Assembly: GCA_963693285.1 (NCBI GenBank)
Contig: OY848930.1
Span: 3,286,001 to 3,350,000 of the forward strand
DNA length: 64,000 nucleotides
DNA from: Xestospongia muta
Lineage: Eukaryota; Porifera; Demospongiae; Haplosclerida; Petrosiidae
Direction: 5' to 3'
Shown in pieces: positions 27,492-54,300 of this stretch. The notes below the pieces were generated by a model. The model was not told where the DNA came from and did not search any database. It saw only the letters and a list, made by a program, of their open reading frames with translations. A program made the position numbers and the translations under genes. Each line of letters opens with the position of its first letter. Positions within the stretch are counted from its first letter, which is position 1.

Positions 27492-30400
27492 ATGACATCG
27501 TTTCAAAGTATAATATTGGTTATACTTGTTATTGCTCTTTTAAACTTTGTTAAACCACTTTCTACTCATATTGTCCAAATTAATACAAGTAATCAACTTT
27601 GGTTCTGGTTATGTAGTCATAATATACCACTGCAAAATAACCTGACATTTCATTTGACACAAAGTAACTACATACTTCGTAACATGACCTTCTGTCTTAT
27701 TGGAAATGTTAGTAATGTTACATTAAAAGGAGTGGGATCTGATGGGAAATCATCAATTAAATGTCAATTACAACAAGAATCAACTAACGGTTTTGGCTTT
27801 GTCAATACATCCAGTGTTACTTTAGAAAACTTAGAGTTTACTGGATGTGGAGCAACAATAACAAAGTCAGCTGTGGCATTCTTTAATGACACACACCCAC
27901 ATTTAGGATATAAACAGAAAGCATTACTGGTATTTAACCATTGCCACAATATAACAATACAACATGTTACTATCACCAACTATATTGGATATGCTATCTT
28001 TATGTTAAATCCTCTTAACTCATCATTAATGAATCATGTTAGAGTCACAACCAGAGGAGCTGGTGACTGTACTGATTCTGGTATGTTTGCTTGTGCTGGT
28101 AGTGGTATATTTGTAATGTTTAAAGACACTCAACAAACCTCTCCTGATATGGCACCTGTGAATGTTATATTGTCACAATCATTCCTTCGATTCAACTTCA
28201 ACATTATACTAAATGTACCTCCCTTGACTCTTATAGGACATGACATATGTAGTCTTCCTGTGGTTGGTGCTGGTGGTCTAACAGTACTGTTTAATCAGTC
28301 ATTTCTGGCTAGATTTATAAGTCAAAATGCACAGATTGGTTTTGACTTAGGAAATGGTGGAACAGTATCAGGAAATATATTAGTAATATTTTATAATGGT
28401 ATGGTCAAGTCTCAACTGTCACTGACAGATACTGATATATTTAATGGATATCTTCTTCCTACAACTAATCAAATTGGTGGTGCATGTCTTACTATTATCT
28501 CAACTTTGTGTCAAACATGTCCTTTTAGTAGCTCAAAAGAATTGCCCATTTGGACACCAATTTCTTTAAACAATGTCTATATACTTGGTTGTGGATCTGA
28601 ATCTAGTTTGGCATTCGAGGTTACATATATCAAATATGGAGGAGGACTCTATCTCAATATTCTTGAATTTTGTGGAGCTAGATCAATTGTCTTGCTATTT
28701 AAAAGAGTGCTATACAGAAAAAACTATGCTTACAAATCTGGATCTGGTCTTTATGCTTTTGTCACAAACTCTGTATTAAAAGACAGCAATATATCTCTAA
28801 TAATAGAAGATATTGAAATAACAACAACTCGGCGAGGTCCTGCTAGTTATACATTATATTCTACAGTTGCAGGTTTAACATTAATTAATTGGAACAATGT
28901 CACATTTAGAGGAAACAGTAATTTTACTGATAACTATTGTCCAATGATTGCAGTATATAAGAGCAATATACACATGACAGGAAAAATATTGTTTAGAAAG
29001 AATGTTGGTGTTTTGGGAGCTGCCATACAACTATTTTCTTCATTCCTTATACTTAATGAACCACTGATTGCTACTTTCCATAACAATAGTGCTTTATTAT
29101 ATGGTGGAGCTATATATGCTGATAATGTAGTAATTCCTGGTCATCATAGATGTGTAATACAAATTAACTCTAACAAAACAAACCTACACAATATAAACAT
29201 CATATTAAAGTTTAAAGGGAACATAGCAGGACTTGCAGGAAACAACATTTATGCTACTCCTCTTTACAACTGTTCCTTCCGTTATCCACAACATGATAAG
29301 TTTGAATTAGCCAACTTTGACTGGAAATCAATTGCACGTTTTGATAAACCAAACTCTCACAACAATGAACTGGAACCAATGTCTTCTCAACCAGTCAAAA
29401 TATGCTCCTGTCAGCTTAATGCCAATACAGAGGTAGTGGCCAAAAACTGTTCAGATTTGTATTCTAATCCTAATGTCATTAGCACCTATGCTGGTAAGAC
29501 AGTAACTATATCATTGTGTGCTGTTGATGATTCTGGTACCATTGTTTACTCTCCTGCTGTTTTTTCTATAACAAACTATCACCATAAACAAGATAAATTG
29601 TCAGAAAATGTACTGTATTTAAAACAAGGACAAACACTTGTACCTTTATCAGGAACTAACTGTACTCAAATCCATTATAATGTCCTTAGTACACTAGATG
29701 AATTCACACATGAAATGCTTAACATTGCAACACCAGGTAGTCCACCATCTTGGTCAGCTGAACTTTATGTACATCCTTGTCCAATGGGATTTATGTTAAA
29801 AGGAGATGAGTGTGTATGTGATAGTTTCATTGCTGACATGTCACCCTCTACAAAATGTAATATTACTACAACAACTATTTCAATATATTCTGGTCTATGG
29901 TTGGGTTATATATCTTCTGGGAATAAAAGTAAGTTGGGATTTGCCTCAGTTTGTCCTCCTGGTAACTGTAAAACTGACACTCTACTATTTAATGTGACAG
30001 ATCCTTTCTCTATTTGTGAGTCCAGTAAGATGGGTATTCTCTGTTCACAATGTCAACATAATATGAGTGTTGTATTTGGTAGTACAGAATGTAGACCATG
30101 CTCTGATCTGTGGTTAATTACAATAGTAGGATATGCTTTGTCTGGTCTGCTACTGGTAACAATAATGCTTGTACTACCTCTGACTATATCAGAAGGACCA
30201 TTAGCTGGTATCATAATAGCTATGAATATCACTTCTGTTTCAACTATTGACTATTTGGATAGTAACAATTGGCTTGTGTACACTGCTAGAGTCTTTGTTT
30301 CCCTCATGAACCTTAATCTAGGTTTTCGAATGTGTTTGTACAATGGAATGACACCAACTGTTAAAACTGCTATACAATTTGTTTATCCAGTGTACTTGTG

Positions 30401-31229
30401 GGTTTTGGTAATTGGATTCATCATATTCAGTCATTACTCAACTAGAATCTCAAACAGAACAGCAAGTTATTCTGTTCAAGTCCTGGCTAGTCTCATCCAC
30501 CTCTCCTTCTCCAAAGTTCTTATCACTTGTATAGACATCATAGCTTATGTTCCTATTTATACATCACAAGAAGGAACAGTGGTAGTGTGGTATGGTGATG
30601 GTAATGTTGAATATCTCTCCAGTCCTCAACATATTGTTCTGTTTACTGTAGCTGTGATAAGTTTGTTGTTGTATATAGTACCTTTCATAATGTTCATTAC
30701 TTTCGGCAGATATTGTATGAGATGGAGATGTGTAAATAAATACTTACGTCCATTTCTAGAGGCTTTTCAGGGTCCGTACAAACATAGACAAGGATACTGG
30801 TATGGAGTGAGGATGATAGCTGTTGTATATGTCTATTTGATGTGGGCAGTTTTTAGAGGATATAATTTTAACCTAATGTTGTTCATGCAACTAACACCAG
30901 TTATTATATTGTGCATCATCCAGGCATCTCTTAAACCATTTCGTAGTTCCAGGTTAAACCATGTTGATATATTTTGTCTGGTATTGTCCATATGTCAAAT
31001 TCAGTCAGCTCTTATGTTTGGTGGTAGATATTACTGGTTGTCTTTTGTGATGGCTTCAATTAACTACATAATTCTTATTTTATTAATGGTTGTGATGGGA
31101 TGTCAATGTTGGCAGAAATTGAAATGTAAATTGAGAAGAGAAAGAAGTCATGTTCATGGTCATGTGACTATCCCAGTAGACGAAGAGGATGATGAGATGA
31201 GACAAGCTCTTTTATTACTTAATGATTAA
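27492..31229 (+). CDS. Secreted beta-helix-like ectodomain plus multi-pass membrane receptor-like protein (copy 2)
   Basis: Uninterrupted 1,245-codon ORF with the same order of parts as the 15,999 gene: signal peptide, long Asn/Thr-rich beta-helix-like region, CPMGFMLKGDECVCDS, CSQCQ/CRPC pair, then multiple membrane helices and the acidic tail DEEDDEMRQALLLL. The transmembrane part is nearly identical to copy 1, whereas differences cluster in the ectodomain (for example around residues 180-190, 340-370 and 640-660, the last with a small length change). That pattern would fit either relaxed or diversifying selection outside the membrane, or gene conversion of the membrane part; it needs a codon test. 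3' flank is shared with copy 1 and both decayed copies. Confidence 0.9.
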   Translation: MTSFQSIILVILVIALLNFVKPLSTHIVQINTSNQLWFWLCSHNIPLQNNLTFHLTQSNYILRNMTFCLIGNVSNVTLKGVGSDGKSSIKCQLQQESTNGFGFVNTSSVTLENLEFTGCGATITKSAVAFFNDTHPHLGYKQKALLVFNHCHNITIQHVTITNYIGYAIFMLNPLNSSLMNHVRVTTRGAGDCTDSGMFACAGSGIFVMFKDTQQTSPDMAPVNVILSQSFLRFNFNIILNVPPLTLIGHDICSLPVVGAGGLTVLFNQSFLARFISQNAQIGFDLGNGGTVSGNILVIFYNGMVKSQLSLTDTDIFNGYLLPTTNQIGGACLTIISTLCQTCPFSSSKELPIWTPISLNNVYILGCGSESSLAFEVTYIKYGGGLYLNILEFCGARSIVLLFKRVLYRKNYAYKSGSGLYAFVTNSVLKDSNISLIIEDIEITTTRRGPASYTLYSTVAGLTLINWNNVTFRGNSNFTDNYCPMIAVYKSNIHMTGKILFRKNVGVLGAAIQLFSSFLILNEPLIATFHNNSALLYGGAIYADNVVIPGHHRCVIQINSNKTNLHNINIILKFKGNIAGLAGNNIYATPLYNCSFRYPQHDKFELANFDWKSIARFDKPNSHNNELEPMSSQPVKICSCQLNANTEVVAKNCSDLYSNPNVISTYAGKTVTISLCAVDDSGTIVYSPAVFSITNYHHKQDKLSENVLYLKQGQTLVPLSGTNCTQIHYNVLSTLDEFTHEMLNIATPGSPPSWSAELYVHPCPMGFMLKGDECVCDSFIADMSPSTKCNITTTTISIYSGLWLGYISSGNKSKLGFASVCPPGNCKTDTLLFNVTDPFSICESSKMGILCSQCQHNMSVVFGSTECRPCSDLWLITIVGYALSGLLLVTIMLVLPLTISEGPLAGIIIAMNITSVSTIDYLDSNNWLVYTARVFVSLMNLNLGFRMCLYNGMTPTVKTAIQFVYPVYLWVLVIGFIIFSHYSTRISNRTASYSVQVLASLIHLSFSKVLITCIDIIAYVPIYTSQEGTVVVWYGDGNVEYLSSPQHIVLFTVAVISLLLYIVPFIMFITFGRYCMRWRCVNKYLRPFLEAFQGPYKHRQGYWYGVRMIAVVYVYLMWAVFRGYNFNLMLFMQLTPVIILCIIQASLKPFRSSRLNHVDIFCLVLSICQIQSALMFGGRYYWLSFVMASINYIILILLMVVMGCQCWQKLKCKLRRERSHVHGHVTIPVDEEDDEMRQALLLLND

Positions 31230-31949
31230 GTTTAGTCATATCCTCAGTTATATGTATTAGAAAGTTTGTATGTAATTCTGTAGTTTAGATATTATAATGA
31301 TTGTTTGTAAATTTTAGAAAACAAATTCATAGTAATGAGTCCTTTTGTATTTCACTTTGCAACACAGACTGAATAAGCTCTTTACCGTGCCACTATAATG
31401 GTTACTTATTTGTTTTAATGAAGTTACACAACCCTTTACAATCACTTTATTGTGTTGTAGCTACAACACAATAAAGTAATTGTGATAATGGAGTTTGTTA
31501 TTTGATTAATCGTAAGGAAGTTCAGTCTCCTTATATGTATTACCACTGTGGTAAATACTTAATATCTTATTGACTATCTAATTGATCATGGTTGTTACTT
31601 GAGAAAAAATTAACAATATTAAAAAATCTTCCTTTGAAAATAACAAGATATTGGTCACAGAAGTGTTAGTGTCTATATTGTATAGGAAATAAATTGTCCA
31701 AACAAGACTATAATCAAATTATTGCTTTTATCATGATCTATATATCAATATAGACACTAACATCTCTGTGACCAGTATCTTGTTATTTAATCCAGATGAT
31801 GAACCTGCAAAGAAAGTCTCTCCTTCTCAATTTAAAGAAAAACAGAAATGAAGCTAGCTATCTTACAAATTTCATGAGCTCATGGTGCAAAGGAAAGATG
31901 TAAATACATTATGACATTTAATATGATACATTTAATGTTTCTCTATTAA
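31230..31949. other. 3' flank of the second receptor gene
   Basis: Homologous to the 3' flanks at about 7,850, 11,833 and 19,750 (TTAGTCATATCCTCAG). Holds the inverted repeat described separately; no gene seen. Confidence 0.6.
31639..31791. repeat. 44-bp inverted repeat (fold-back)
   Basis: AATAACAAGATATTGGTCAC... at 31,639-31,682 is inverted at about 31,748-31,791 with only two or three differences. The other receptor copies have just the right-hand arm at the same position in their 3' flanks (about 8,320-8,375 and 12,190-12,215), so the left arm appears to be an inverted duplication specific to this copy. Confidence 0.75.
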
Positions 31950-31951
31950 TA

Positions 31952-32337
31952 GAGTAACAGACCAATAGTCGTACGGACCGATTTTCGGACGTTTATATCT
32001 ACTAAATGGTAAATGCTATAAAGCTGATTCTGCAGACACTGGTAGGTGCTTACCTGTACTACTTGTGTACTAAATATTAGCTTGCAAAAATACAGTATAC
32101 AAGTGCTGCAGCTCGAAGATCAACATTGTACGAATACCGCGGTTTTCGTACAGTTGAACCAGTGTTCGGACATCTACCTGGGAAATAGCTGGGAATTGGA
32201 GACAAGCAATGAAACGTGAGATTCTAGTTCATCAATGATTCCTCTTTCAAACCTCCAAGCCCGAGCCCTGCACTTCTTGTATGCCCGCGATTACAAGTGT
32301 GAGAGTGCAAGTGGATCACGTGACCAGTATTCGGACG
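31952..32337 (+). repeat. Left 386-bp TIR of the large transposon
   Basis: Inverted copy of 44,284-44,669. Contains several CGGAC/GTCCG-centred motifs (ATTTTCGGACG, GTGTTCGGACA, GTATTCGGACG) and a near-palindrome TGTACGAATACCGCGGTTTT, plausible transposase binding sites repeated within the arm. Confidence 0.95.
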
Positions 32338-32416
32338 TAAACAATTATGGAAGGTGGTGCATAATGAGTTATAAATAATTTTCCAACTGGTCCTTAATTA
32401 TTAAGACAAAATTATT

Positions 32417-33535
32417 CTATTTCATGGAGATCTTGCAACATGATTTACACTCCCAAACATCAGGAATGTTACCTGGAGTAACATGAACACAGGAACAGTG
32501 AAACCACTGCCCACACACATCACAAGAGATCATCATCTCGTCGTAGTCTTCAGGCATTTTACAGTAACAATATAGGTCAATGATGTGATGATGTCTTGAA
32601 GGTCGAGGTATACATTCCGGCTGGTTGTGCAATTTCTTTGGGAACAGAGACAACTTTCTTCTTTCAAAACAATCAATTAGATGATCACACATTACTTCTT
32701 GGTGAAAACTAGCACATTCAGGATTGTTTCCACAACACACTTCCATTGCCATAGCAATAGAAAAGAGGCCACAGTCCCAGCTCCCTTCCTGCTGTTGTAC
32801 AGACATTGTCTGTATTTTCAGAGAAGATTTTGAGGAATAGGAGTATATTTGTGAAACTTGAAGAAGAGTGGGCTTGTTAAGTGTATAGAATAATGCCAAA
32901 CTGTCCATAATCTGGACAACTCCAGGTCTTTGGGAACATGTACAGATCCAGTGATTAGATCCTACAATAAAGAGTTTACATGAGGAATAATCCTTTATTC
33001 ATTAAATATCAGGGTATTTAATTTTCATTGCACCTACATGTAGGTACATGCACAAATGCTGGGTCAATATTTTCATGGATTATAAATCTCCCATGAAAAC
33101 AACAAAATTTAAAACCCCTCAAAAATTTCTATCCTTACAGTAAGTATGTAACAACTTGACAAGGTGAATTAATAGCAGTCCCTTTGTATTACTACAACCA
33201 ATAAGGATTATTACCAGACATAATTTTTTGCTGTGGAAATTTCTAAACACTTTTTTGTTCTGATAAGGTATTATTAACCTTGCTGCTTAACTTATTAACA
33301 CACATCACTGTACCTGTGTGAAGTATCTGAACAGAGGGTATCCTAGGAACAACTTTAAACTTGAGACGATAACCCAACAATGTATTCTGAAAACCATGTA
33401 TGTGTGGAAATTGTTGACTTAGAAGAGTGTGGGCAGCATTGATCACATTGTCGGAAACTTCAGAACCACTTTCAAGATGATTCTTGTCTGCTATATAAAG
33501 ATTCAGATCTTTTATCCACCAGGAATCTGCTTTAC
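32417..33535 (-). CDS. Ulp1/SENP-type cysteine protease with C-terminal PHD finger
   Basis: Two exons: 33,314-33,535 (74 codons) and 32,417-32,961 (181 codons plus stop), separated by a 352-bp intron, entered and joined in phase 1. The first encodes WWIKDLNLYIADKNHL and HTLLSQQFPHIHGFQ, the N-terminal lobe seen in transposon-borne C48 peptidases. The second starts SNHWICT (catalytic His), then QIMDSLA (Asp), QQQEGSWDCGLF (oxyanion Gln and nucleophile Cys), so all catalytic residues are present. After about 100 residues a PHD finger follows with the full Cys4-His-Cys3 pattern: CYC, CDVC, HCSC, CKSC. No start codon at its head; it reads as the 3' end of the gene that begins with the transposase at 44,186. 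Likely roles: SUMO/ubiquitin-like deconjugation and chromatin (histone tail) reading, both inference from the families. Confidence 0.85.
32962..33313. other. Intron between the two protease exons
   Basis: GT at 33,313 and AG at 32,962 (minus). No repeat or ORF of interest inside. Confidence 0.6.
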
Positions 33536-33573
33536 CTGTAAACAAAAATGACATAATATACATGTACATGTAG

Positions 33574-33949
33574 CAGACATGGGGCAAACACTTGAGTGCT
33601 TGTGCTTGAAAGCCCTTTAAGCAAGTGCTTTCAGGTGCTTTGATACTTTTCTTAAGTATAAGCACTTGTGCTACTTTATATTAAAGTATTATATAATAAG
33701 CACAAAGGTCTGTACATGTACAGAGCATTTTAGTAAGTTTTAGGCCTAAAGGTGCCAGGTTAGTGATAATACGTTTCATAATGTTCATTTTGATGTAACA
33801 AGGTGATTATTAATGAATTTGCTTAATCAAAGTGCTCCTGCTTGTGCTTAAAACAGGTATGTGGTGCTTGAATTTGTGCTTCAATTACTTCTATATTTTG
33901 TGCTTCAATTACTTCTATTAAGCACTTGAAAATGCTTGCCCCATGTCTG
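33574..33949. mobile_element. MITE inside the intron before the protease exons
   Basis: CAGACATGGGGCAAACACTT at 33,574 is inverted at the right end, where CATGTCTG ends at 33,949 (preceded by AAGCACTTGAAAATGCTTGCCC). The interior is rich in AGCACTTGTGCTT-like short repeats. No ORF. Target duplication not clear. It enlarges an intron that elsewhere in the array is 44 bp. Confidence 0.65.
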
Positions 33950-33961
33950 AGTTTGACACAC

Positions 33962-34030
33962 CTTTCATATTTTTTCCAGTTTGGCAAGTCTCTAAAACTT
34001 CAACATCAACAGGCTCAGGGTCGAATAACT
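33962..34030 (-). CDS. Linker exon between mini-exon array and protease
   Basis: 69-bp exon, phase 1 on both sides, bounded by TTTTAG and GTGTGT, the same donor as in the array. Encodes ELFDPEPVDVEVLETC... ending ...NMK. Its layout (hydrophobic/acidic start, basic end, 23 codons) matches the array units, although the sequence is much diverged; probably the oldest unit or the progenitor. Confidence 0.65.
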
Positions 34031-34081
34031 CTAAAATTACATGTATGGTAATAAAGGTAAAGTAATCTCAATTTGACACAC

Positions 34082-37000
34082 CTTTTTTTGGTTTTCTTGG
34101 AAGTGCCATTTCTAAATCATCAGCCTCAGACTTGGAAAATTCTCCTACAACTAAACAATAAAGGTACAATAATTTTAATTTGACACACCTTTCTTCTTAT
34201 TCCTGGTTTGTCTTGGAAGTGCCATTTCTAAATCATTAGCCTCAGACTCAGACAACTCTACTACAACTAAACAATAAAGGTACAGTAATTTAAATTTGAC
34301 ACACCTTTCTTCTTATTCCTGGTTTGTCTTGGAAATGCCATTTCTAAATCATCAGCCTCAGACTCAGACAACTCTACTACAACTAAACAATAAAGGTACA
34401 GTAATTTTAATTTGACACACCTTTCTTCTTATTCCTGGTTTGTCTTGTAAGTGCCATCTCTAAATCATCAGCCTCAGACTTGGAGAACCCTACTACAACT
34501 AAACAATAAAGGTACAGTAATTTTAATTTGACACACCTTTCTTCTTATTCCTGGTTTGTCTTGGAAGTGCCATTTCTAAATCATCAGCCTCAGACTCAGA
34601 CAACTCTACTACAACTAAACAATATAGGTACAGTAATTTTAATTTGACACACCTTTCTTCTTATTCCTGGTTTGTCTTGGAAGTGCCATTTCTAAATCAT
34701 TAGCCTCAGACTCAGACAACTCTACTACAACTAAACAATATAGGTACAGTAATTTTAATTTGACACACCTTTCTTCTTATTCCTGGTTTGTCTTGGAAGT
34801 GCCATTTCTAAATCATTAGCCTCAGACTCAGACAACTCTACTACAACTAAACAATATAGGTACAGTAATTTTAATTTGACACACCTTTCTTCTTATTCCT
34901 GGTTTGTCTTAGAAGTGCTATCTCTAAATCATCAGCCTCAGACTTGGAGAACCCTACTACAACTAAACAATAAAGGTACAGTAATTTTAATTTGACACAC
35001 CTTTCTTCTTATTCCTGGTTTGTCTTGGAAGTGCCATTTCTAAATCATTAGCCTCAGACTCAGACAACTCTACTACAACTAAACAATATAGGTACAGTAA
35101 TTTTAATTTGACACACCTTTCTTCTTATTCCTGGTTTGTCTTAGAAGTGCTATCTCTAAATCATCAGCCTCAGACTTGGAGAACCCTACTACAACTAAAC
35201 AATAAAGGTACAGTAATTTTAATTTGACACACCTTTCTTCTTATTCCTGGTTTGTCTTGGAAGTGCCATTTCTAAATCATTAGCCTCAGACTCAGACAAC
35301 TCTACTACAACTAAACAATATAGGTACAGTAATTTTAATTTGACACACCTTTCTTCTTATTCCTGGTTTGTCTTAGAAGTGCCATCTCTAAATCATCAGC
35401 CTCAGACTTGGAGAACCCTACTACAACTAAACAATAAATGTACAGTAATTTTAATTTGACACACCTTTCTTCTTATTCCTGGTTTGTCTTGGAAGTGCCA
35501 TTTCTAAATCATTAGCCTCAGACTCAGACAACTCTACTACAACTAAACAATAAAGGTACAGTAATTTTAATTTGACACAGCTTTCTTCTTATTCCTGGTT
35601 TGTCTTGGAAGTGCCATCTCTAAATCATCAGCCTCAGACTCGGACAACTCTACTACAACTAAACAATAAAGGTACAGTAATTTTAATTTGACACACCTTT
35701 CTTCTTATTCCTGGTTTGTCTTGGAAATGCCATTTCTAAGTCATTAGCCTCAGACTCGGACAACTCTACTACAACTAAACAATAAAGGTACAGTAATTTT
35801 AATTTGACACACCTTTCTTCTTATTCCTGGTTTGTCTTGGAATTGCCATTTCTAAATCATTAGCCTCAGACTCGGACAACTCTACTACAACTAAACAATA
35901 AAGGTACAGTAATTTTAATTTGACACACCTTTCTTCTTATTCCTGGTTTGTCTTGGAAGTGCCATTTCTAAATCATTAGCCTCAGACTCGGACAACTCTA
36001 CTACAACTAAACAATATAGGTACAGTAATTTTAATTTGACACACCTTTCTTCTTATTCCTGGTTTGTCTTGGAAATGCCATTTCTAAATCATTAGCCTCA
36101 GACTCAGACAACTCTACTACAACTAAACAATAAAGGTACAGTAATTTTAATTTTACACACCTTTCTTCTTATTCCTGGTTTGTCTTGGAAGTGCCATTTC
36201 TAAATCATTAGCCTCAGACTCAGACAACTCTACTACAACTAAACAATAAAGGTACAATAATTTTAATTTGACACACCTTTCTTCTTATTCCTGGTTTGTC
36301 TTGGAAATGCCATTTCTAAATCATTAGCCTCAGACTCAGACAACTCTACTACAACTAAACAATAAAGGTACAGTAATTTTAATTTGACACACCTTTCTTC
36401 TTATTCCTGGTTTGTCTTGGAAGTGCCATTTCTAAATCATTAGCCTCAGACTCAGACAACTCTACTACAACTAAACAATATAGGTACAGTAATTTTTATT
36501 TGACACACCTTTCTTCTTATTCCTGGTTTGTCTTAGAAGTGCCATTTCTAAATCATCAGCCTCAAACTTGGAGAACCCTACTACAACTAAACAATAAAGG
36601 TACAGTAATTTTAATTTGACACACCTTTCTTCTTATTCCTGGTTTGTCTTGGAAATGCCATTTCTAAATCATTAGCCTCAGACTCGGACAACTCTACTAC
36701 AACCAAACAATAAAGGTACAGTAATTTTAATTTGACACACCTTTCTTCTTATTCCTGGTTTGTCTTGGAAGTGCCATCTCTAAATCATCAGCCTCAGACT
36801 CGGACAACTCTACTACAACTAAACAATAAAGGTACAGTAATTTTAATTTGACACACCTTTTTTCTTATTCCTGGTTTGTCTTGGAAATGCCATTTCTAAG
36901 TCATTAGCCTCAGACTCAGACAACTCTACTACAACTAAACAATATAGGTACAGTAATTTTTATTTGACACACCTTTCTTCTTATTCCTGGTTTGTCTTAG

Positions 37001-40000
37001 AAGTGCCATTTCTAAATCATCAGCCTCAAACTTGGAGAACCCTACTACAACTAAACAATAAAGGTACAATGATTTTAATTTGAGACACCTTTCTTCTTAT
37101 TCCTGGTTTGTCTTGGAAGTGCCATTTCTAAATCATTAGCCTCAGACTCAGACAACTCTACTACAACTAAACAATAAAGGTACAGTAATTTTAATTTGAC
37201 ATACCTTTTTTCTTATTCCTGGTTTGTCTTGGAAATGCCTTTTCTAAGTCATTAGCCTCAGACTCGGACAACTCTACTACAACTAAACAATATAGGTACA
37301 GTAATTTTAATTTGACACACCTTTCTTCTTATTCCTGGTTTGTCTTGGAAATGCCATTTCTAAATCATTAGCCTCAGACTCAGACAACTCTACTACAACT
37401 AAACAATAAAGGTACAGTAATTTTAATTTTACACACCTTTCTTCTTATTCCTGGTTTGTCTTGGAAGTGCCATTTCTAAGTCATTAGCCTCAGACTCGGA
37501 CAACTCTACTACAACTAAACAATAAATGTACAGTAATTTTAATTTAAACACACCTTTCTTCTTATTCCTGGTTTGTCTTGGAAGTGCCATTTCTAAATCA
37601 TCAGCCTCAGACTCAGACAACTCTACTACAACTAAACAATAAAGGTACAGTAATTTTAATTTGACACACCTTTCTTCTTATTCCTGGTTTGTCTTGGAAA
37701 TGCCATTTCTAAGTCATTAGCCTCAGACTCGGACAACTCTACTACAACTAAACAATAAAGGTACAGTAATTTTAATTTGACACACCTTTCTTCTTATTCC
37801 TGGTTTGTCTTGGAATTGCCATTTCTAAATCATTAGCCTCAGACTCGGACAACTCTACTACAACTAAACAATAAAGGTACAGTAATTTTAATTTGACACA
37901 CCTTTCTTCTTATTCCTGGTTTGTCTTGGAAGTGCCATTTCTAAATCATTAGCCTCAGACTCGGACAACTCTACTACAACTAAACAATATAGGTACAGTA
38001 ATTTTAATTTGACACACCTTTCTTCTTATTCCTGGTTTGTCTTGGAAATGCCATTTCTAAATCATTAGCCTCAGACTCAGACAACTCTACTACAACTAAA
38101 CAATAAAGGTACAGTAATTTTAATTTTACACACCTTTCTTCTTATTCCTGGTTTGTCTTGGAAGTGCCATTTCTAAATCATTAGCCTCAGACTCAGACAA
38201 CTCTACTACAACTAAACAATAAAGGTACAATAATTTTAATTTGACACACCTTTCTTCTTATTCCTGGTTTGTCTTGGAAATGCCATTTCTAAATCATTAG
38301 CCTCAGACTCAGACAACTCTACTACAACTAAACAATAAAGGTACAGTAATTTTTATTTGACACACCTTTCTTCTTATTCCTGGTTTGTCTTAGAAGTGCC
38401 ATTTCTAAATCATCAGCCTCAAACTTGGAGAACCCTACTACAACTAAACAATAAAGGTACAATGATTTTAATTTGAGACACCTTTCTTCTTATTCCTGGT
38501 TTGTCTTGGAAGTGCCATTTTTAAATCATTAGCCTCAGACTCAGACAACTCTACTACAACTAAACAATAAAGGTACAGTAATTTTAATTTGACATACCTT
38601 TTTTCTTATTCCTGGTTTGTCTTGGAAATGCCTTTTCTAAGTCATTAGCCTCAGACTCGGACAACTCTACTACAACTAAACAATAAATGTACAGTAATTT
38701 TAATTTAAACACACCTTTCTTCTTATTCCTAGTTTGTCTTGGAAGTACCATTTCTAAATTATCAGCCTCAGACTTGGAGAACCCTACTACAACTAAACAA
38801 TAAAGGTACAGTAATTTTAATTTGACACACCTTTCTTCTTATTCCTGGTTTGTCTTGGAAATGCCATTTCTAAATCATTAGCCTCAGACTCGGACAACTC
38901 TACTACAACCAAACAATAAAGGTACAGTAATTTTAATTTGACACACCTTTCTTCTTATTCCTGGTTTGTCTTGGAAGTGCCATCTCTAAATCATCAGCCT
39001 CAGACTCGGACAACTCTACTACAACTAAACAATAAAGGTACAGTAATTTTAATTTGACACACCTTTTTTCTTATTCCTGGTTTGTCTTGGAAATGCCATT
39101 TCTAAGTCATTAGCCTCACACTCGGACAACTCTACTACAACTAAACAATAAATGTACAGTAATTTTAATTTAAACACACCTTTCTTCTTATTCCTGGTTT
39201 GTCTTGGAAGTACCATTTCTAAATCATCAGCCTCAGACTCGGACAACTCTACTACAACTAAACAATAAAGGTACAATAATTTAAATTTAAACACACCTTT
39301 CTTCTTATTCCTGGTTTGTCTTGGAAGCACCATTTCTAAATTATCAGCCTCAGACTTGGAGAATTCTCCTATAACTAAACAATAAAGGTACAATAATTTT
39401 AACTTGACACACCTTTCTTCTTATTCCTGGTTTGTCTTGGAAATGCCATCTCTAAATCATCAGCCTCAGACTCGGACAACTCTACTACAACTAAACAATA
39501 AAGGTACAGTAATTTTAATTTGACACACCTTTCTTCTTATTCCTGGTTTGTCTTGGAAATGCCATTTCTAAATCATTAGCCTCAGACTCGGACAACTCTA
39601 CTACAACTAAACAATAAAGGTACAGTAATTTTAATTTGACACACCTTTCTTCTTATTCCTGGTTTGTCTTGGAAGTGCCATTTCTAAATCATTAGCCTCA
39701 GACTCGGACAACTCTACTACAACTAAACAATAAAGGTACAGTAATTTTAATTTGACACACCTTTCTTCTTATTCCTGGTTTGTCTTGGAAATGCCATTTC
39801 TAAATCATTAGCCTCAGACTCGGACAACTCTACTACAACTAAACAATAAAGGTACAGTAATTTTAATTTAAACACACCTTTCTTCTTATTCCTGGTTTGT
39901 CTTGGAAGTACCATTTCTAAATTATTAGCCTCAGACTTGGAGAATTCTCCTACAACTAAACAATAAAGGTACAGTAATTTTAATTTGACACACCTTTCTT

Positions 40001-42433
40001 CCTATTCCTGGTTTGTCTTGGAAGTGCCATTTCTAAATCATTAGCCTCAGACTCGGACAACTCTACTACAACTAAACAATAAAGGTACAGTAATTTTAAT
40101 TTGACACACTTTTCTTTTTATTCCTGGTTTGTCTTGGAAGAGCCATTTCTAAATCCTTAGCCTCAGACTCAGACAACTCTACTACAACTAAACAATAAAG
40201 GTACAGTAATTTTAATTTGACACACCTTTCTACTTATTCCTGGTTTGTCTTGGAAGTGCCATTTCTAAATCATTAGCCTCAGACTCGGACAACTCTACTA
40301 CAACTAAACAATAAATGTACAGTAATTTTAATTTAAACACACCTTTCTTCTTATTCCTGGTTTGTCTTGGAAGCACCATTTCTAAATTATCAGCCTCAGA
40401 CTTGGAGAATTCTCCTATAACTAAACAATAAATGTACAGTAATTTTAATTTAAACACACCTTTCTTCTTATTCCTGGTTTGTCTTGGAAGTACCATTTCT
40501 AAATTATCAGCCTCAGACTTGGAGAACCCTACTACAACTAAACAATAAAGGTACAGTAATTTTAATTTGACACACCTTTCTTCTTATTCCTGGTTTGTCT
40601 TGGAAATGCCATTTCTAAATCATTAGCCTCAGACTCGGACAACTCTACTACAACCAAACAATAAAGGTACAGTAATTTTAATTTGACACACCTTTCTTCT
40701 TATTCCTGGTTTGTCTTGGAAGTGCCATCTCTAAATCATCAGCCTCAGACTCGGACAACTCTACTACAACTAAACAATAAAGGTACAGTAATTTTAATTT
40801 GACACACCTTTTTTCTTATTCCTGGTTTGTCTTGGAAATGCCATTTCTAAGTCATTAGCCTCAGACTCAGACAACTCTACTACAACTAAACAATATAGGT
40901 ACAGTAATTTTTATTTGACACACCTTTTTTCTTATTCCTGGTTTGTCTTAGAAGTGCCATATCTAAATTATCAGCCTCAAACTTGGAGAACCCTACTACA
41001 ACTAAACAATAAAGGTACAATAATTTTAATTTAAACACACCTTTCTTCTTATTCCTGGTTTGTCTTGGAAGCACCATTTCTAAATTATCAGCCTCAGACT
41101 TGGAGAATTCTCCTATAACTAAACAATAAAGGTACAATAATTTTAACTGGACACACCTTTCTTCTTATTCCTGGTTTGTCTTGGAAATGCCATCTCTAAA
41201 TCATCAGCCTCAGACTCGGAGACCCCTACTACAACTAAACAATAAAGGTAAAGTAATTTTAATTTGACACACTTTTCTTCTTATTCCTGGTTTGTCTTGG
41301 AAGTGCCATTTCTAAATCATTAGCCTCAGACTCGGACAACTCTACTACAACTAAACAATAAAGGTACAGTAATTTTAATTTGACACACCTTTCTTCTTAT
41401 TCCTGGTTTGTCTTGGAAGTGCCATTTCTAAATCATTAGCCTCAGACTCGGACAACTCTACTACAACTAAACAATAAAGGTACAGTAATTTTAATTTGAC
41501 ACACCTTTCTTCTTATTCCTGGTTTGTCTTGGAAATGCCATTTCTAAATCATTAGCCTCAGACTCGGACAACTCTACTACAACTAAACAATAAAGGTACA
41601 GTAATTTTAATTTAAACACACCTTTCTTCTTATTCCTGGTTTGTCTTGGAAGTACCATTTCTAAATTATTAGCCTCAGACTTGGAGAATTCTCCTACAAC
41701 TAAACAATAAAGGTACAGTAATTTTAATTTGACACACCTTTCTTCTTATTCCTGGTTTGTCTTGGAAGTGCCATTTCTAAATCATTAGCCTCAGACTCGG
41801 ACAACTCTACTACAACTAAACAATAAAGGTACAGTAATTTTAATTTGACACACTTTTCTTCTTATTCCTGGTTTGTCTTGGAAGAGCCATTTCTAAATCC
41901 TTAGCCTCAGACTCGGACAACTCTACTACAACTAAACAATAAAGGTACAGTAATTTTAATTTGACACACCTTTCTACTTATTCCTGGTTTGTCTTGGAAG
42001 TGCCATTTCTAAATCATTAGCCTCAGACTCGGACAACTCTACTACAACTAAACAATAAATGTACAGTAATTTTAATTTAAACACACCTTTCTTCTTATTC
42101 CTGGTTTGTCTTGGAAGCACCATTTCTAAATTATCAGCCTCAGACTTGGAGAATTCTCCTATAACTAAACAATAAAGGTACAGTAATTTTAATTTGACAC
42201 ACTTTTCTTCTTATTCCTGGTTTGTCTTAGAAATGCCATTTCTAAATCATTAGCCTCAGACTCGGAGACCCTACTACAACTAAACAATAAAGGTAAAGTA
42301 ATTTTAATTTGACACACTTTTCTTCTTATTCCTGGTTTGTCTTGGAAGTACCATTTCTAAATCATCAGCCTCAGACTCGGAGACCCCTACTACAACTAAA
42401 CAATAAACGCACATTAATTTTAATTTTACACAT
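34082..42433 (-). repeat. Array of about 72 tandem 116-bp units, each a 72-bp mini-exon plus 44-bp intron
   Basis: 8,352 bp, equal to 72 periods of 116. On minus each unit has acceptor TTGTTTAGTTGTAG, a 72-bp exon, and donor AAAG/GTGTGTC; the intron is 44 bp. Exons enter and leave in phase 1 and encode 24 residues of the type V-E-L-SESEANDLEMALP-RQTRNKKK, acidic first half, basic second half. A minority type (GEFSKSEADNLEMVLP) is 23 codons. Units differ at a limited set of sites (A/V, L/F, N/D, S/F, E/K, G/E). Splicing of all would add about 1,700 aa. The unit's 3' end (GGAATAAGAAGAAAG) matches the 3' end of the transposase exon, so units probably arose by duplicating that exon end with its intron. 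One unit (42,203-42,273) is 71 bp and out of frame. Confidence 0.92.
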
Positions 42434-44186
42434 CTTTCTTCTTATTCCTTCCACTTCTCTTTGTTTGGGACTGTTCTCTTTTGGCTTTTGCCTTATCTTC
42501 TCTAACTCTTTTCCGCTCATCCTTTTGTAGAGCTTCCATTTCTTTCTGTCTCTGTCGTTGCCACAGAAATTGGATATGATGACGGCTGGTAAGAACTTTT
42601 CCTGCAGATTTTGTAGTGGCTTTACTTGGTGGTAAAAATGCAGGAACTAAAAAATTGCCAATAGTTGATGCAGATCGAGTTGGTAACGAACCTTCTCGAA
42701 AAGATCTCTCGTGCAAGTCTGGATCAGACAACGACCTTTCCAAGACCATAGATCTATCTGAACTAAGAAACGTTCCATTGCTGAGGAGCTCATGATCCTC
42801 CATTGACCGACGTGGAGTACTAGTAACAGCTTGACAATGGGACTTTGAATGTCCAAGAGCAGGGCTATATAATGGAATGTAAGCTAGGCCTGTTTTTTGA
42901 GCAAAAGCTTCGGGTTTGAATAGAGCAAAGTCTTCATTATCATTTGGCTGCAACACATGTGCTTTAGTAACTGACCGATCAAGTGGGTACACTCCAGTGA
43001 CTCTAAAACTTGATACGATGTTTTCTATTGAAAAAGCTTTCGACCAAGCCTGAGAGAAAAGTTGACAAAAATCATACTGAGATACTGTCTTTCCAGGGTT
43101 TTTAGCAACGAATTGGTGGCAAATCTGTCTCCATGATACTTTTAATGGTGCAAAGCATCCTCTGTCCAGTGGCTGCATCACATGTGTTTTATGAGGTGGG
43201 AGGGTGAAAATAATAACTTGATTTTGAGCTGCCATATTGATAGTATCAGGACAATAATGAGTAGAGTGCCCATCCAGTAGTAGAAGCAGTGGGCGAACTT
43301 GTGGGGCATATAGTAGGAAATGCTTTGTGAACCAATGGAAAAAGAGATCCCTTGACATCCATCCACTGTCAGACAGGCCGTAGAGTGTCCCAGGGATTTC
43401 TCCTCTAGTTAACTCCTAACTTAAAGATTTTCTGTTAAAAATGATGAAGGGAGGTATAACGTAACCAGCTGCACACGAGCAAGCCAAAACAGTTATTTGT
43501 GCTTTAGTATTTCCAGTTATGTGGCTAGGATTTCTAGAACCAATCTTGTCCACTATCTTTAAACATTTTGGGCTAAGTGGAAGCCCAGTTTCGTCGCAGT
43601 TGAAAATGCGAGAAGGATCATCAAGTATGCCATTGGTTTCTAAAGTTTCTTCAAGCATATCAAAGTAATGATCGAGTACTTCTGGATTGGTTGCAATTGC
43701 CCTTCCATAAGATAACGGTACAGCCATCTTCAGAGTTAATTTGGGATGTCTTCCCAGAAATCTCTCCCACCATCCATTTGATAGTGTTGTTTCAATTCCC
43801 TTTCCCTCAACAATTCTTTGAACTAAAGCCAGTACTTGTTTCTTGGTATGCGGGTACCCAATCTTAGCAGTTTGGATTAAAAAACTCGCTAATTCCTCTT
43901 CTTCTTCAAAACTTAAATAAGGGGTTGGACCTGATCTTGCCTTACAATCAACTTTGCCACTCACTCTATCATGGAGTGAAGATTTTGGGACTGAGAAGAT
44001 TTCACAAGCTTGTCTGATTGGCATTCCCAACTCGACTTCCTTAACTGCTTTTTCCATACTCTCGCTGTTCCATCTCCTGTATGTAGTACCACGCCGTGGC
44101 AAAGAGCAGGATGAGGTTTCCTTACTCGAAGTAGATCTATGCGGCGCTTTTACGACTCTTCTTGAAATGGGTGGGTGAGAATACAT
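42434..44186 (-). CDS. Pogo/Tigger-like DDE transposase (one nonsense codon)
   Basis: 1,753 bp from ATG at 44,186, one exon, 584 codons plus one base (phase 1). A psq-type helix-turn-helix (MEKAVKEVELGMPIRQACEI, then VPKSSLHDRVSG) is followed by a CENP-B-type second HTH (HTKKQVLALVQRIVEG...NGWWERFLGRHP). Catalytic Asp residues lie in IFNCDETGL, LLLLDGHSTHY and HVMQPLDRGCFAPLK. The C-terminus is a basic coiled region (RQRQKEMEALQKDERKR...). TAG at 43,416-43,418, after NRKSLS, is in frame with open sequence on both sides, so this copy is interrupted. At the exon end AAAG is followed by ATGTGT rather than the array's GTGTGT: the donor has lost its G, and translation would stop two codons later. 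The product acts on the element's TIRs; in this copy it is probably inactive. Confidence 0.85.
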
Positions 44187-44283
44187 CTAGATCTGTAAAT
44201 AAAGAAAAACAAGTCAACCAGACTGAACCAGTCAACCAGGCTACAGGCTACCTTAAATTGTATGAGTTTCTATCTTCCACGTG

Positions 44284-44669
44284 CATCCGAATACTGGTCA
44301 CGTGACCCACTTGCACTCTCACACTTGTAATCGCGGGCATACAAGAAGTGCAGGGCTCGGGCTTGGAGGTTTGAAAGAGGAATCATTGATGAACTAGAAT
44401 CTCACGTTTCATTGCTTGTCTCCAATTCCCAGCTATTTCCCAGGTAGATGTCCGAACACTGGTTCAACTGTACGAAAACCGCGGTATTCGTACAATGTTG
44501 ATCTTCGAGCTGCAGCACTTGTATACTGTATTTTTGCAAGCTAATATTTTGTACACAAGTAGTACAGGTAAGCACCTACCAGTGTCTGCAGAATCAGCTT
44601 TATAGCATTTACCATTTAGTAGATATAAACGTCCAAAAATCGGTCCGTACGACTATTGGTCTGTTACTC
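44284..44669 (-). repeat. Right 386-bp TIR of the large transposon
   Basis: Inverted copy of 31,952-32,337. Ends ...CTGTTACTC immediately before TA. The transposase ATG lies about 100 bp inside, so the TIR probably contains the promoter. Confidence 0.95.
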
Positions 44670-44671
44670 TA

Positions 44672-46816
44672 TTATATTGTACACCTTTTGTTTTACAATC
44701 CTCTAGATTATTTAAAGTCAGATCCCAAACATAAAAGATCTGTTTTTGTGTTATGGTCTAGAAACAAGTGTGTTGGGTAGTTTACTTTAGAAGTGATATT
44801 GCACAAGACTATACTTCAAAGAGACAAGTACAAGTTCGAGAGAATGTCAGCAACTTAAAATACATACATAACTAAAGAAATATTTTTACTTCATTTTGTC
44901 TGCATACATTCTTCATAAAAGAACATTATATGTATATATAGTTTATTGACCTTTATTTAGTAAATAAAGATAACACACACAGTGCTTAGTTCTTAACATT
45001 AATTACTGACTAACAGCAATATGACAAATTATGAGAGGGTCAATTGCTCAAATAAAACAAGCAATGTATTGATTTAATTTTGACTCACAGTGAAACAAAT
45101 TTTATGTAATAATAATTACACATTATTTAGTACTCATAATCATCCTATAATTTTTGTAATTCTATATCTAGGTCACAGGACACTAATAACACAAACTATC
45201 TAATTAAGTTAATGTTATACTGTGTCATTGCTAGTTTAATGGAACCTTAAACTTTTAAATGGAGCCTCAGACTACTATGAATTATGCAGAAGGCATTGTA
45301 TGTGCTACAACACACAGTAAAATAAAAAATAATTAAGTTAAATACACAATAGTACATTATAGTACATTAGGTTTAAGTGTACATTTTACTTTTATGTTTA
45401 TCGAAGCACCCTTAGGTTCATGAATAGAAATTACAGCAATTACTACATACCCTGTTTTGATAAGTAGTACATGTAAACACTAACATTATAATGCTGTCTT
45501 ATTGGGTGTCATCACTATAACATACACTTATCACTGAAGTCTAAGATAGCATTACAGCATTGACTGCTAATCTGAAAACAATAAAAGAATGTCATTTCGT
45601 TCTGTTTGGAACTCATCGTCATGATGTACTCCATGTATATACATACATATTAAGTATGATTAACTGAAGAAAACCTAAGGCCACATTCTTACAATACTAA
45701 CAAACTCTTATCATTAAAGTATTTGAGTGAATAAAATGTCTTTAATTTCTACGAGTATAAGAGTAAAAACATTTGTATTAATTAAAACATTATAGGTCTT
45801 TGCACATAATCAATTTAGTAAACTAATTTGATAGGAAAAGTTTAGTATATCTGCAATAAATAATCCATTAGATCAAATCATAACAGACATTTCCTTGTTA
45901 TTTTTTTAATCTGAATATGACCTATTTGTTTATGGCACTGACAATTCATGGTATATACTGACTATACCTTGGTTATCTTCTTTGTTATTGAGACAACTAT
46001 TGATATGGAAGACAGAATAACTTCTCAATTAAACCAAAGCACACCTGATTTTAATCACTGTACACTACACCAAAATCTGTCATCTTACTCCATACATACT
46101 TCCTTGATGACAGCTTTCCATGTTCTTCTTTGTTAACAACTTTAAGTGAATAACAAGTCAATAGCATTAAAGAACAATAAAGAATGTTCATAAATAAAGT
46201 CAATAAGTAATACTGTTAGCAGAAGGGAGGTGTCAATAAAATATTCCATAAGACAAATTAGGTCACACACACACACATATAGGATTATTATGAGTAAGAC
46301 CTGTCATTGTGAGAACTGATTGTGTTGATTTAGCCAATATAAAGTTATACAGATTGTTGTATGTAGCAAAATTATTTGATACAAATTGTAAATAACACTG
46401 TTTTCATTTCCAATGCACTTAGATCTTTGATGTAGTAGATATAATTTAACTAAGTGATCTATTAACAAGCTGTATATTTTAATATTGACAATGAAATAGC
46501 TGAGAAACAAATATTGAGTAAGTTATTAGTATCTATCTGCTATGATAACAACTTACAAGCAATAATGTAAAAATGTAGAAACATATTCTAACAGACTGAC
46601 TGGAATCTAAACAAACTAGATATATTGACATATATTTAGGACACAGTTTAACAGATGTAACTATGATTGTTTACACTATGACTGGCACAAACAGCCATAC
46701 TTTAATGAGAAATTACTAGGTAGCTACTAGCATGTACAACAATATGAATGTAGATTCATTTAACACAATGTTATTCAGTTCACTGTAAGTCAGATTTCAT
46801 TTAGCATCATGATCAT
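44672..46816. other. AT-rich intergenic region
   Basis: About 44,815-45,000 is the paralogue of 25,575-25,800, including AGTAAATAAAGATAA, a possible poly(A) signal. About 46,150-46,245 matches 25,210-25,290. Minus and plus ORFs at 45,948 and 46,304 lack domains and are not called. Confidence 0.5.
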
Positions 46817-51300: not shown

Positions 51301-54300
51301 AATAAACGATGTTGTATTACTATGATAGACAAGGAATTAGACTAATTCTGTCATCAACAAAGTCAATGCTTCTTCTGTGTACACATACATTTTAAAATTG
51401 TTACTAACTTTATAGTATGATGTTCAACATTGCTATGATATGCTACGATATCTTCACTATACTTTAACTGATTAGCAGACTTAGTTATCTTTTCTTACTA
51501 TAGTATTTTAAAAATTGTAGTAGTCATACTTTAATTTACATTCTTTGCTATTTTATTATTAGAATGAGAATACAGCTTTGCATTTAGCCTTGGGTAATGG
51601 TCACACTGAGATAGTTCAATTTCTTCTACAATCAAATGCAGATCCTAATATTTATAACAAGGTCAGTGTGTATTGTGTCTAATTTATATTTCATTTATTA
51701 TCTCTACTACATGTACATTATGTAGCACTGACTGTCTAATAGGACAGGATATACATCAAAACCAATGTAATGAGTACAATTCAGTTAACCTTTTAATGCC
51801 ATGCAATTAATTTTCAATGAAATATGTGTGGACAGGACAAAGTAGCTCTTATTAGTTGTTTGGTATATAATTATTACTAACATGACTGGAAAATGTAATA
51901 AACCTAATATGTAATACAATATATAAAACATTAATGTGTTCTTACATGAAATAAACCTGATCAGTGCTAAGATTGTTTTAGACCATGTGTGTATGTATAT
52001 TTCTATATATGTCCACTTTATCAAGTTTAATCTATTATTATTATTAAGCAATTTATTTCATATCATAGTGGGGACATAGTCCACTTCATATAGCATGCTG
52101 GTATGGTCATGATAACATTGTTAAGCTGTTATGTTCTTTTGGAGCAAAAGATATAGACCAAGTTAGAAATGCAAGTGATAAATGTAATAATATATTTACT
52201 GTATATGATGACATGGAATAATGACCTTATATGTTATGATATATTATAAAAATGATCTAATTATACGTGGGTACATATCACAATTATAATATATTATTTA
52301 TTTTAACAGGATGACTTACTTTTGACTTCAGCCAAAAATGGTGATATAGAAAATGTAACTCTTTCAATTACATCAGGTGCTCATGTCAATATTCATCATG
52401 GTGGCTTAGGGAAGGTTAGTACACTGATTAAATAGTACTAATTACTGTTGTTTGTTAGTCTTTACTTTTTAAAGTAATCTATTCTATAACAAAGGTGATG
52501 TTTTACAGGCACTTAAGAGATTTAGCCCCACCCACTCTTGTAGTAGACATTGTTTCATCAAGAAGGCTGTTTAATATCTCTTTTCCTATTTCCATAAAAC
52601 TTCTCTATCACTTTCTCTATTGACGTTGTCATGAACAAGGAATTTATTAACCCAGACTTTTAATTAATATGCCTATTTTGACATTTTGACAAACTTCCTT
52701 GTTTCACAATATTCGACAATTATTGTTAAACACCAATGCAGATCCCAATATTTGTGACGGGGTCAGTGCATATTTATTGTTTGTAGAGATTACTACATGT
52801 TACTAGATTTAAATCAGTATTTAATAGATGTAGAATGTTATGGATGTGACTATTAGAAATTTCTACATTGACTTGTTGTTCAAATGTTTGTTAGTAAATG
52901 ATTAACAAAGATAGTCAGTGTCAGGTATCAGTAGGTAGGAAGGTTAGTACACTGATTAAATAGCAATATATTACTTTTGTTTGTTAGAATTTACTTTTTT
53001 AGAAATCTATTCTATAACAAAGAAATTCATTACAGGTATTTAAGACATTAAGCCCCACCCATTCTTATAGACATTGATTCATCTAAAAGGCAGTTTAATA
53101 ATATCTCTTTCCATAAGACTTCTCTATCAATTTACTGTATTGACATTGTCATACAATATTAATGAAGAAGGAATTGTTTGACCCAAACCTCTAATTTATA
53201 TACATATTAAGTTCAGCAAAGGACTATTATTTTATTTATAAACTGGTAGATTTGTAATTACTGATGTTATCTTGATATTTATGGTCAGTGAATGTCAGCC
53301 TACAAATGACATGAACATTTCTATTATTAAATTCTGTTGACCTAACCTTTGAAGTCTACTTAGTTTGTGGACTAACATTACACCAGGTAGTATTCCTTAA
53401 AAGAACCCTGGTATTCATAGAAGTACCACTGCATGTAAATATAGTACAATGGTGATGTTATCTTGTGTCATAAAGAGTTATTGTCGGAATAATGGTGTTG
53501 TTCCTTGTTTCAGACCAGATATTACAATTGTTATACTATTACTTTACATGCTAGACATGAGATGGTTTGGACTGTGTTTATAACTTTATATACAATGTCA
53601 ATTTCCATTTTTATACATAATTCAATACTAGCATATAGATATATGTGAATATTGAAGGTAGTGAATGAAATTTCATTGCATATAACAATTGTCAATGCAG
53701 TTAGCAACAAATGAATTTACTTCACTCTTCCCATCAATAACTCATCCTGAGCATGACTACTTGAAGAAAAAGTGTTTTCTTCCAAATGTAGCTTCTTCAA
53801 CCCTTAATTATAAGTGTTCCTTTTTATTATTGTTATATATTATAATATTTTATATAAATTTAATGCTACTATAATCAATAAGAAATACTTGTGTACTTCC
53901 TCTAGGATCAGCAAACAGCTCTACATTTAGCAGCAAAAGGACGTTATTGTGATATTGTACAACAATTGCTAAACTCCAATGGAGATCCCAATATTTGTGA
54001 TGAGGTCAGTGTATATTATTTGTAGAGATTACTACATGTTACTAGATTTAAATCAGTATTTAATAGATATAGAATGTTATGGGTGTGGCTGTTAGCAATT
54101 TCTACATTGACCTGTTGTTCAAATTTTTGTTAGTAAATGATTAACAAAGATAGTCAGTGTCAGGTATCTGTAGGTGTGGCCTGTTATAATAGTAGTACAT
54201 ATTGACAGGGCTCCCACTAGTATAGTGTATCATTTCTGTCAAACAGTTCTGATGTTTGTGTAAGAGTTATATCATCAGCATTATGCTATACATTTATATT

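Follow-up and report, generated by a model that had tools for sequence, protein, structure and literature searches.

Tandem arrays of symmetric exons are known from few host genes. As Davis et al. are said to have found in 1988, Schistosoma mansoni has tandemly repeated exons encoding 81-base repeats. The micro-exon genes of this species, so far as the available part of the source goes, contain many short exons, mostly multiples of three in length (PMC10526429), and the titin PEVK region, in the excerpted account, consists of short exons in an array, 113 of which are annotated in human; it encodes an extensible linker and has gained and lost exons (PMC6469411). Here we discuss an array with exons of similar size and the same short-exon character in a 64,000-nucleotide stretch of the genome of the sponge Xestospongia muta (contig OY848930.1 of assembly GCA_963693285.1, positions 3,286,001 to 3,350,000), referred to in its entirety as "the window". 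We consider it likely that a pogo/Tigger-like DNA transposon carries the array within its coding gene, where the array would form a "mini-exon" linker between the transposase and a C-terminal Ulp1-PHD module.

The differences from these systems are as instructive as the similarities. According to the accessible portions of the sources, the S. mansoni exons belong to host genes with introns of ~100 to 5000 bp (PMC10526429), and titin is likewise a host gene, with diverse exons and documented splicing (PMC6469411). The array discussed here, in contrast, lies in a mobile gene, has introns of 38-51 nt and is found in three lineages of one genome with up to 177 near-identical units. Among mobile elements, Ginger1 has introns and a transposase whose C-terminus carries an Ulp1 domain, together with a PHD finger in one family; however, its transposase is of the integrase type, its introns number 0-4, and the available text mentions no mini-exon array (PMC2836005). 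Membership of the window element in Ginger1 was rejected since its transposase is of the DDE_1 and not the Gypsy-integrase type; the C-terminal module alone is alike. Within the genome examined (158 Mb, 28 contigs), an Ulp1-PHD end also follows an apparent Gypsy-type integrase, judged by eye, at locus L034 (G000 C15:2004600-2007700), and the same genome thus seems to contain a Ginger1-like element whose C-terminal module is related. Variable-number tandem repeats inside a DNA transposon are also known from the Tetris foldback element and the TIR-220 satellite. Those repeats, however, sit in the inverted repeats, and a coding or splicing role is not described in the part of the source available (PMC4079207). 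No account of a transposon mini-exon array of this kind was found in the open-licence library searched. The features for which these searches gave no description are the location in a mobile gene, the very short introns, how many and how alike the units are, and their separate amplification in several lineages.

Tandem Repeats Finder places the array at 34089-42449, with a period of 116, 72.0 copies and 93% matches. The array lies within an inverted-repeat-bounded element of 12.7 kb (31947-44674; Table 1), in agreement with the initial annotation, which had recognized about 72 tandem units of 116 bp inside a transposon gene. A donor-anchored scan of the minus strand gives 74 anchors at a spacing of 115-117 bp, except at the far end, where the spacings are 107 and 120. 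One anchor marks where the transposase exon ends; the others belong to 71 "core" units, a penultimate unit, the mini-exon of which is 9 nt shorter than the core exon, and a diverged last unit. Among the 71 core units of the window, GT is present at the intron start in 69, the acceptor AG in all 71, a 69-nt exon in 70 and a frame without an in-frame stop in 68; 66 pass on all four counts. Hence, the claim that splice sites and frame are kept in nearly all units stands, and the most fitting reading of the array is a minus-strand chain of mini-exons that are symmetric (phase 1-1). The core unit has three in-frame tandem acceptors, TTTAG, TTGTAG and TAGTAG, which would give exons of 78, 72 and 69 nt, respectively. 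The 72-bp exon originally proposed is one of these options, and the tandem acceptors equally allow 69 or 78 nt. We adopted 69 nt because the last mini-exon and a second subfamily (L029 and L030) have only the last of the three acceptors. With the first acceptor, the unit would start with VVVELSESE, which presumably resembles a SUMO-interaction motif and is suggestive beside an Ulp1-like domain.

The exons of the gene in which the array is embedded agree in phase. Every junction between the transposase exon, the successive mini-exons and Ulp1 exons A and B is in phase 1, and the units are symmetric, as the initial annotation proposed. The element shares DDE_1, psq-type and Tc5-type DNA-binding domains and TA ends with pogo/Tigger-like transposons and differs from them in having, in addition, an Ulp1-PHD module and a linker of mini-exons. 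The transposase exon of the open copy L012 matches DDE_1 (82.6 bits), HTH_psq (29.7) and HTH_Tnp_Tc5 (23.3) above the Pfam cut-offs, while in the window HTH_Tnp_Tc5 falls just under its cut-off. With DDE_1, a psq/CENP-B-type DNA-binding domain, inverted repeats and TA ends, the element is a pogo/Tigger-like DNA transposon, and the outermost TA on both arms is likely the target duplication. At the other end of the gene, the joined Ulp1 exons of L009 match PHD, and their Peptidase_C48 score (18.5 bits) lies below the Pfam cut-off of 20.7. The Ulp1-like region contains HW, MDSL and DCGLF, which we take to be the Ulp1 catalytic motifs, with a putative role in this element. Based on the weak C48 match, these motifs and the likeness to Ginger1 C-termini, the assignment as an Ulp1-like protease is a tentative one. 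In a comparison with solved structures, the matches listed fall on the PHD finger. Across the genome, Pfam C48 has three matches, none of them at the window transposon family, and the profile is therefore too weak here to map the Ulp1 module.

Tandem copying inflates any chain of mini-exons measured in the window itself, and therefore the relatives weigh more. We searched for chains of open, phase 1-1 mini-exons of 36-84 nt with introns of 36-62 nt and used 200 dinucleotide shuffles as control. The linker in the window gave 39 consecutive mini-exons (shuffle mean 1.8, maximum 4). A stricter version of the test gave shorter chains because donors such as ATG/GT and AAA/GT were excluded; the relaxed version is reported here. 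With respect to the feasibility of such short introns, those of the Amphimedon queenslandica ribosomal-protein genes can be as short as 37 bp and have a median length of 68 bp, with a genome median of 81 bp, in the part of the source available (PMC3412847).

In subfamily 2 (L029 and L030), where the transposase is 62-63% identical to that of the window family, the plan is the same and the unit sequence is different. Between anchors, every one of the 23 array exons is open and has a length of 72 nt, GT and AG are each present in 22 of the 23, and the introns measure 40 nt, with one of 39; relative to the window family, this is a difference of 3 nt for the exon and 7 for the intron. The chains found comprise 17 (L029) and 9 (L030) mini-exons against a shuffle maximum of 3 each, with a few chosen boundaries deviating from the 72-nt units. 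The last mini-exons are alike across the subfamilies (...VVEKCPIDKNK versus ...VLETCQTGKNMK). A third lineage, represented by L031 and L032 (transposase identity 39% and, over a part, 58%), also has a phase 1-1 mini-exon chain, in which several sequences are distinct and one 54-nt mini-exon is repeated; here the chains reach 9 and 5, versus shuffle maxima of 3 and 4. Longer chains than in the shuffles were also obtained for L009 (19; maximum 5) and L022 (5; maximum 2). A chance satellite with accidental splice signals, which the initial annotation had already argued against, was set aside, since the plan is common to lineages with other unit sequences.

Conservation within the units points in the same direction. 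In nine arrays of at least five units (L027 excluded), non-majority bases occur at 7 of 1556 splice-dinucleotide positions and at 393 of 11670 positions in the intron interior, i.e., the splice dinucleotides are ~7.5 times less variable. These ratios are descriptive and not tests because the units are copies of each other. In the decayed L027, the donors are more variable than the interior (15/134 versus 86/2010). Of the 292 exons in the seven better-preserved copies, 4 have a frame-changing length, as do 23 of the 292 introns; per base, such lengths are about eight times rarer in exons than in introns. The split into these seven and eleven other copies is a grouping of our own. Collectively, the open 3n units in subfamily 2, the chains in the third lineage, the matching phases, the conserved splice dinucleotides and the fewer frame-changing exon lengths provide the rationale for the mini-exon reading, according to which the array is a real, unusual gene architecture and the mini-exons are probably spliced.

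Between arrays, the intron is perhaps the better-kept part of the unit. Its consensus (47 columns) is the same in all nine arrays, whereas that of the exon varies in 8 of its 69 columns (Fisher p 0.02, L027 dropped after inspection); when L027 is included, the counts are 2/47 and 9/69 (p 0.20). This pattern fits, though it does not prove, a linker with unimportant residues but important splicing signals. It would also be expected if the unit was kept as a repeated binding site, e.g., for the transposase, with a coding appearance left over from an origin in the transposase 3' end; Galileo, according to the portion of the source available, has internal repeats that contain binding sites of the transposase (PMC4079207). 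However, the array lies in the middle of the element rather than close to its ends, there are copies with just one unit, and splicing signals account for the intron conservation equally well, while the 3n bias of exon lengths would be left unexplained. We consider repeated binding sites a highly improbable explanation. In a further scenario, retention of the first intron would yield a stand-alone transposase (...RNKKKGVSN-stop) and full splicing a transposase-linker-Ulp1-PHD fusion, such that array length would set the fusion frequency and the spacing of the two ends of the protein; each change in copy number would reset this splicing device of a selfish gene, giving every copy a setting of its own. 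In that case, no part of the unit should be better preserved than the intron, and the array consensuses point that way. We hold this length-tunable device to be rather doubtful.

Several findings weigh against the mini-exon reading and should be considered together. The length of the mini-exon is ambiguous (69, 72 or 78 nt), with the relatives and the last mini-exon favouring the last AG. In the window, the variant density is as high in the exon (0.43 per site) as in the intron core (0.47); hence, of the substitution differences anticipated between exons, splice sites and introns, the conservation of the splice dinucleotides was found and the distinction between exon and intron was not. In the eleven other copies, frame-changing lengths affect 25 of 180 exons, in addition to 72 of 180 introns, and a one-base exon insertion is common to 14 units of four decayed copies. 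The first mini-exon of L029, located before the first anchor, has a stop (its counterpart in L030 has none), and the chains of L016 (2) and L017 (3) do not exceed the shuffles (maximum 3 each). A constraint at the codon level, another anticipated feature, failed to appear in eight of nine unit sets (P 0.19-0.92 for a nonsynonymous shortage). Only L012 has such a shortage (8 nonsynonymous variants against 10 synonymous ones, uncorrected P 0.0036), and general amino-acid selection on the array is therefore not supported. Elsewhere in the gene, pN/pS is 0.28-0.85 for the transposase exons (seven copies, 21 pairs) and 0.60, summed, for the Ulp1-PHD exons; the whole gene is therefore only moderately constrained.

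Moreover, premature stops are present in 18 of 18 elements under a scripted exon model. The transposase stop of the window copy lies in an exon that is open in L009, L012 and L015, and without GT at the first donor its reading frame ends ...RNKKKDV-stop; the window copy is defective, and the full protein probably cannot be made from it. L009 comes nearest to being open, with open transposase and Ulp1-PHD exons and a stop in 2 of its 29 core units, one variant occurring twice. In L012, all 177 units are stop-free, but three have a non-3n length and Ulp1 exon A contains a stop. A search of the protein collection gave no product crossing the transposase/mini-exon/Ulp1 junctions. Three proteins were listed: P0001 and P0002, which are transposase open reading frames (ORFs) and, as public predictions, end in the first intron, and P0121, a 269-residue Ulp1-PHD protein that starts with MINWW. 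P0121 was rejected as a product of joined exons, as it shows no mini-exon sequence. Among the genome matches listed there was also no spliced retrocopy; two candidates were rejected since the sequences fetched turned out to be other Ulp1 genes. A search of viral contigs yielded no transposase relative.

These observations bear on two rival explanations. If the transposase ended at ...RNKKKGVSN-stop and its 3' end was amplified together with the adjoining DNA, the array would be a non-coding minisatellite, with splice-like features that are incidental and copied along. The stop after GVSN that the first intron yields in other copies, at which P0001 and P0002 end, and the equal variant densities are in keeping with this idea, and the Tetris repeats offer a precedent for transposon repeats growing in a satellite-like manner, as far as the accessible text goes (PMC4079207). 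However, a minisatellite would not account for two other lineages with the same phase-1 plan and different unit sequences, for the conserved GT and AG, for the scarcity of frame-changing lengths in exons or for the matching phase-1 Ulp1 exon downstream, and we regard it as unlikely. In the other explanation, the mini-exons are real but skipped as a block: the transposase exon would be joined to Ulp1 exon A and the array carried as an intron. Both flanking exons are in phase 1, as this requires, and the stops in the two L009 units would be bypassed. In this scenario, however, the splice sites would not stay conserved. In A. queenslandica, moreover, intron retention is common and exon skipping is the rarest mode of alternative splicing, according to the part of the source available (PMC4432959). 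Block skipping is accordingly given very little credence here.

The mini-exon reading also offers a simple route by which the arrays could have grown. A single minus-strand gene would be transcribed from a DDE transposase (exon 1) through a linker of many symmetric phase 1-1 exons, separated by introns of ~38-51 nt, to the C-terminal Ulp1-like domain and PHD finger. The ancestor would already have had a chain of distinct mini-exons. As every junction is in phase 1 and each unit has its own donor and acceptor, a single mini-exon could be duplicated without loss of the frame. Two mechanisms could bring this about, unequal exchange and excision followed by repair; which of them operated is a matter of inference. 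One unit would then have been amplified and homogenized separately in different lineages and large copies, to between 1 and 177 copies. If spliced in, as would be expected for most units, each would add 23-26 residues, acidic and then basic, to a linker that is probably disordered.

The copies of the window subfamily reveal how far unit number can vary. In the 18 elements read, window included (further genomic copies are listed beyond these), the core units between donor anchors number 1, 1, 1, 2, 2, 3, 3, 3, 5, 5, 7, 14, 29, 40, 41, 67, 71 and 177. The suggestion that copy number is free to change accords with this range. Two of these counts, those for L011 and L025, are too low by at least one, since the first anchor there falls on a unit and not on the transposase end. 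The shortest plan, in L017 and L023, consists of the transposase exon followed by one core, the penultimate and the last mini-exon. Taking the 472 core units of the 18 elements together, GT is present in 454, AG in 466, a 3n exon in 443 and a stop-free frame in 421, and 392 pass throughout. The failures concentrate in decayed copies, as illustrated by the passing units of L027 (39/67), L018 (21/40), L020 (29/41) and L024 (6/14).

In the large arrays, the nearest relative of a unit usually lies within its own element: this is the case for 177/177 units in L012, 67/67 in L027, 65/71 in the window, 27/29 in L009, 40/41 in L020, 37/40 in L018 and 11/14 in L024. Short arrays mostly have few or no such units, e.g., L015 (0/5) and L026 (2/7). 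In addition, identical units recur at fixed spacings, 24 and 31 in L012, 15 and 17 in the window and 8 in L009. Therefore, the large arrays grew separately, by duplication of several units at a time. Such amplification and homogenization within copies is a trait of satellite-type DNA and is not in conflict with a coding role.

These data raise the question of whether the ability to be spliced allows satellite-like DNA to expand within a reading frame. The elements also provide a natural series of unit numbers, which bears on how the spliceosome pairs many identical sites and on what linker length a transposase tolerates. Arrays of this kind may be masked as satellites or escape gene finders.

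Table 1. Features of the transposon and its mini-exon array (window coordinates; strand given as - or, where not applicable, as a dot)
Feature	Position	Strand	Remarks
Terminal inverted repeat, gene 3' end	31947..32335	.	389 nt, 99% complementary to other arm; outermost TA
Ulp1 exon B with PHD finger and stop	32417..32961	-	ORF; PHD by Pfam
Ulp1 exon A, 222 nt	33314..33535	-	Phase 1 at both ends; same exon in L009
Short element with inverted ends	33574..33949	.	Within the last linker intron, before Ulp1 exon A
Last, diverged mini-exon, 69 nt, ELFDPEPVDVEVLETCQTGKNMK	33962..34030	-	Outside the interval of the initial annotation
Penultimate mini-exon, 60 nt	34082..34141	-	Anchor spacing 107; counterparts in other copies
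71 core mini-exon units, 116 bp each	34189..42386	-	Exon 69 nt with last acceptor, intron 47 nt
First intron	42387..42433	-	First two bases not GT in window copy; GT in other copies
Transposase exon, HTH_psq and DDE_1	42434..44186	-	ORFs, Pfam; premature stop 43416-43418
Terminal inverted repeat, gene 5' end	44286..44674	.	389 nt; outermost TA

The short element within the gene has 20-nt inverted ends that are 90% complementary. Its start is also found directly after the last donor in other copies, and because of this shared position it was probably inserted before the copies spread. At another locus, L033 (G000 C5:5243600-5246800), thirteen array anchors follow a short piece of transposase tail; among the genome matches listed, neither an Ulp1 match nor a terminal repeat lies at this locus, which looks like a captured internal fragment.

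Elsewhere in the window, two plus-strand ORFs at 15999-19748 (no Pfam match) and 27492-31229 encode clearly related products of 1249 and 1245 residues with probable membrane segments on the C-terminal side. A minus-strand ORF at 20840-22690 (616 residues) has a reverse-transcriptase match of 28.5 bits, just below the Pfam cut-off of 29.6. A tandem repeat of 138 bp is present in two copies, with 95% matches, at 54165-54442.

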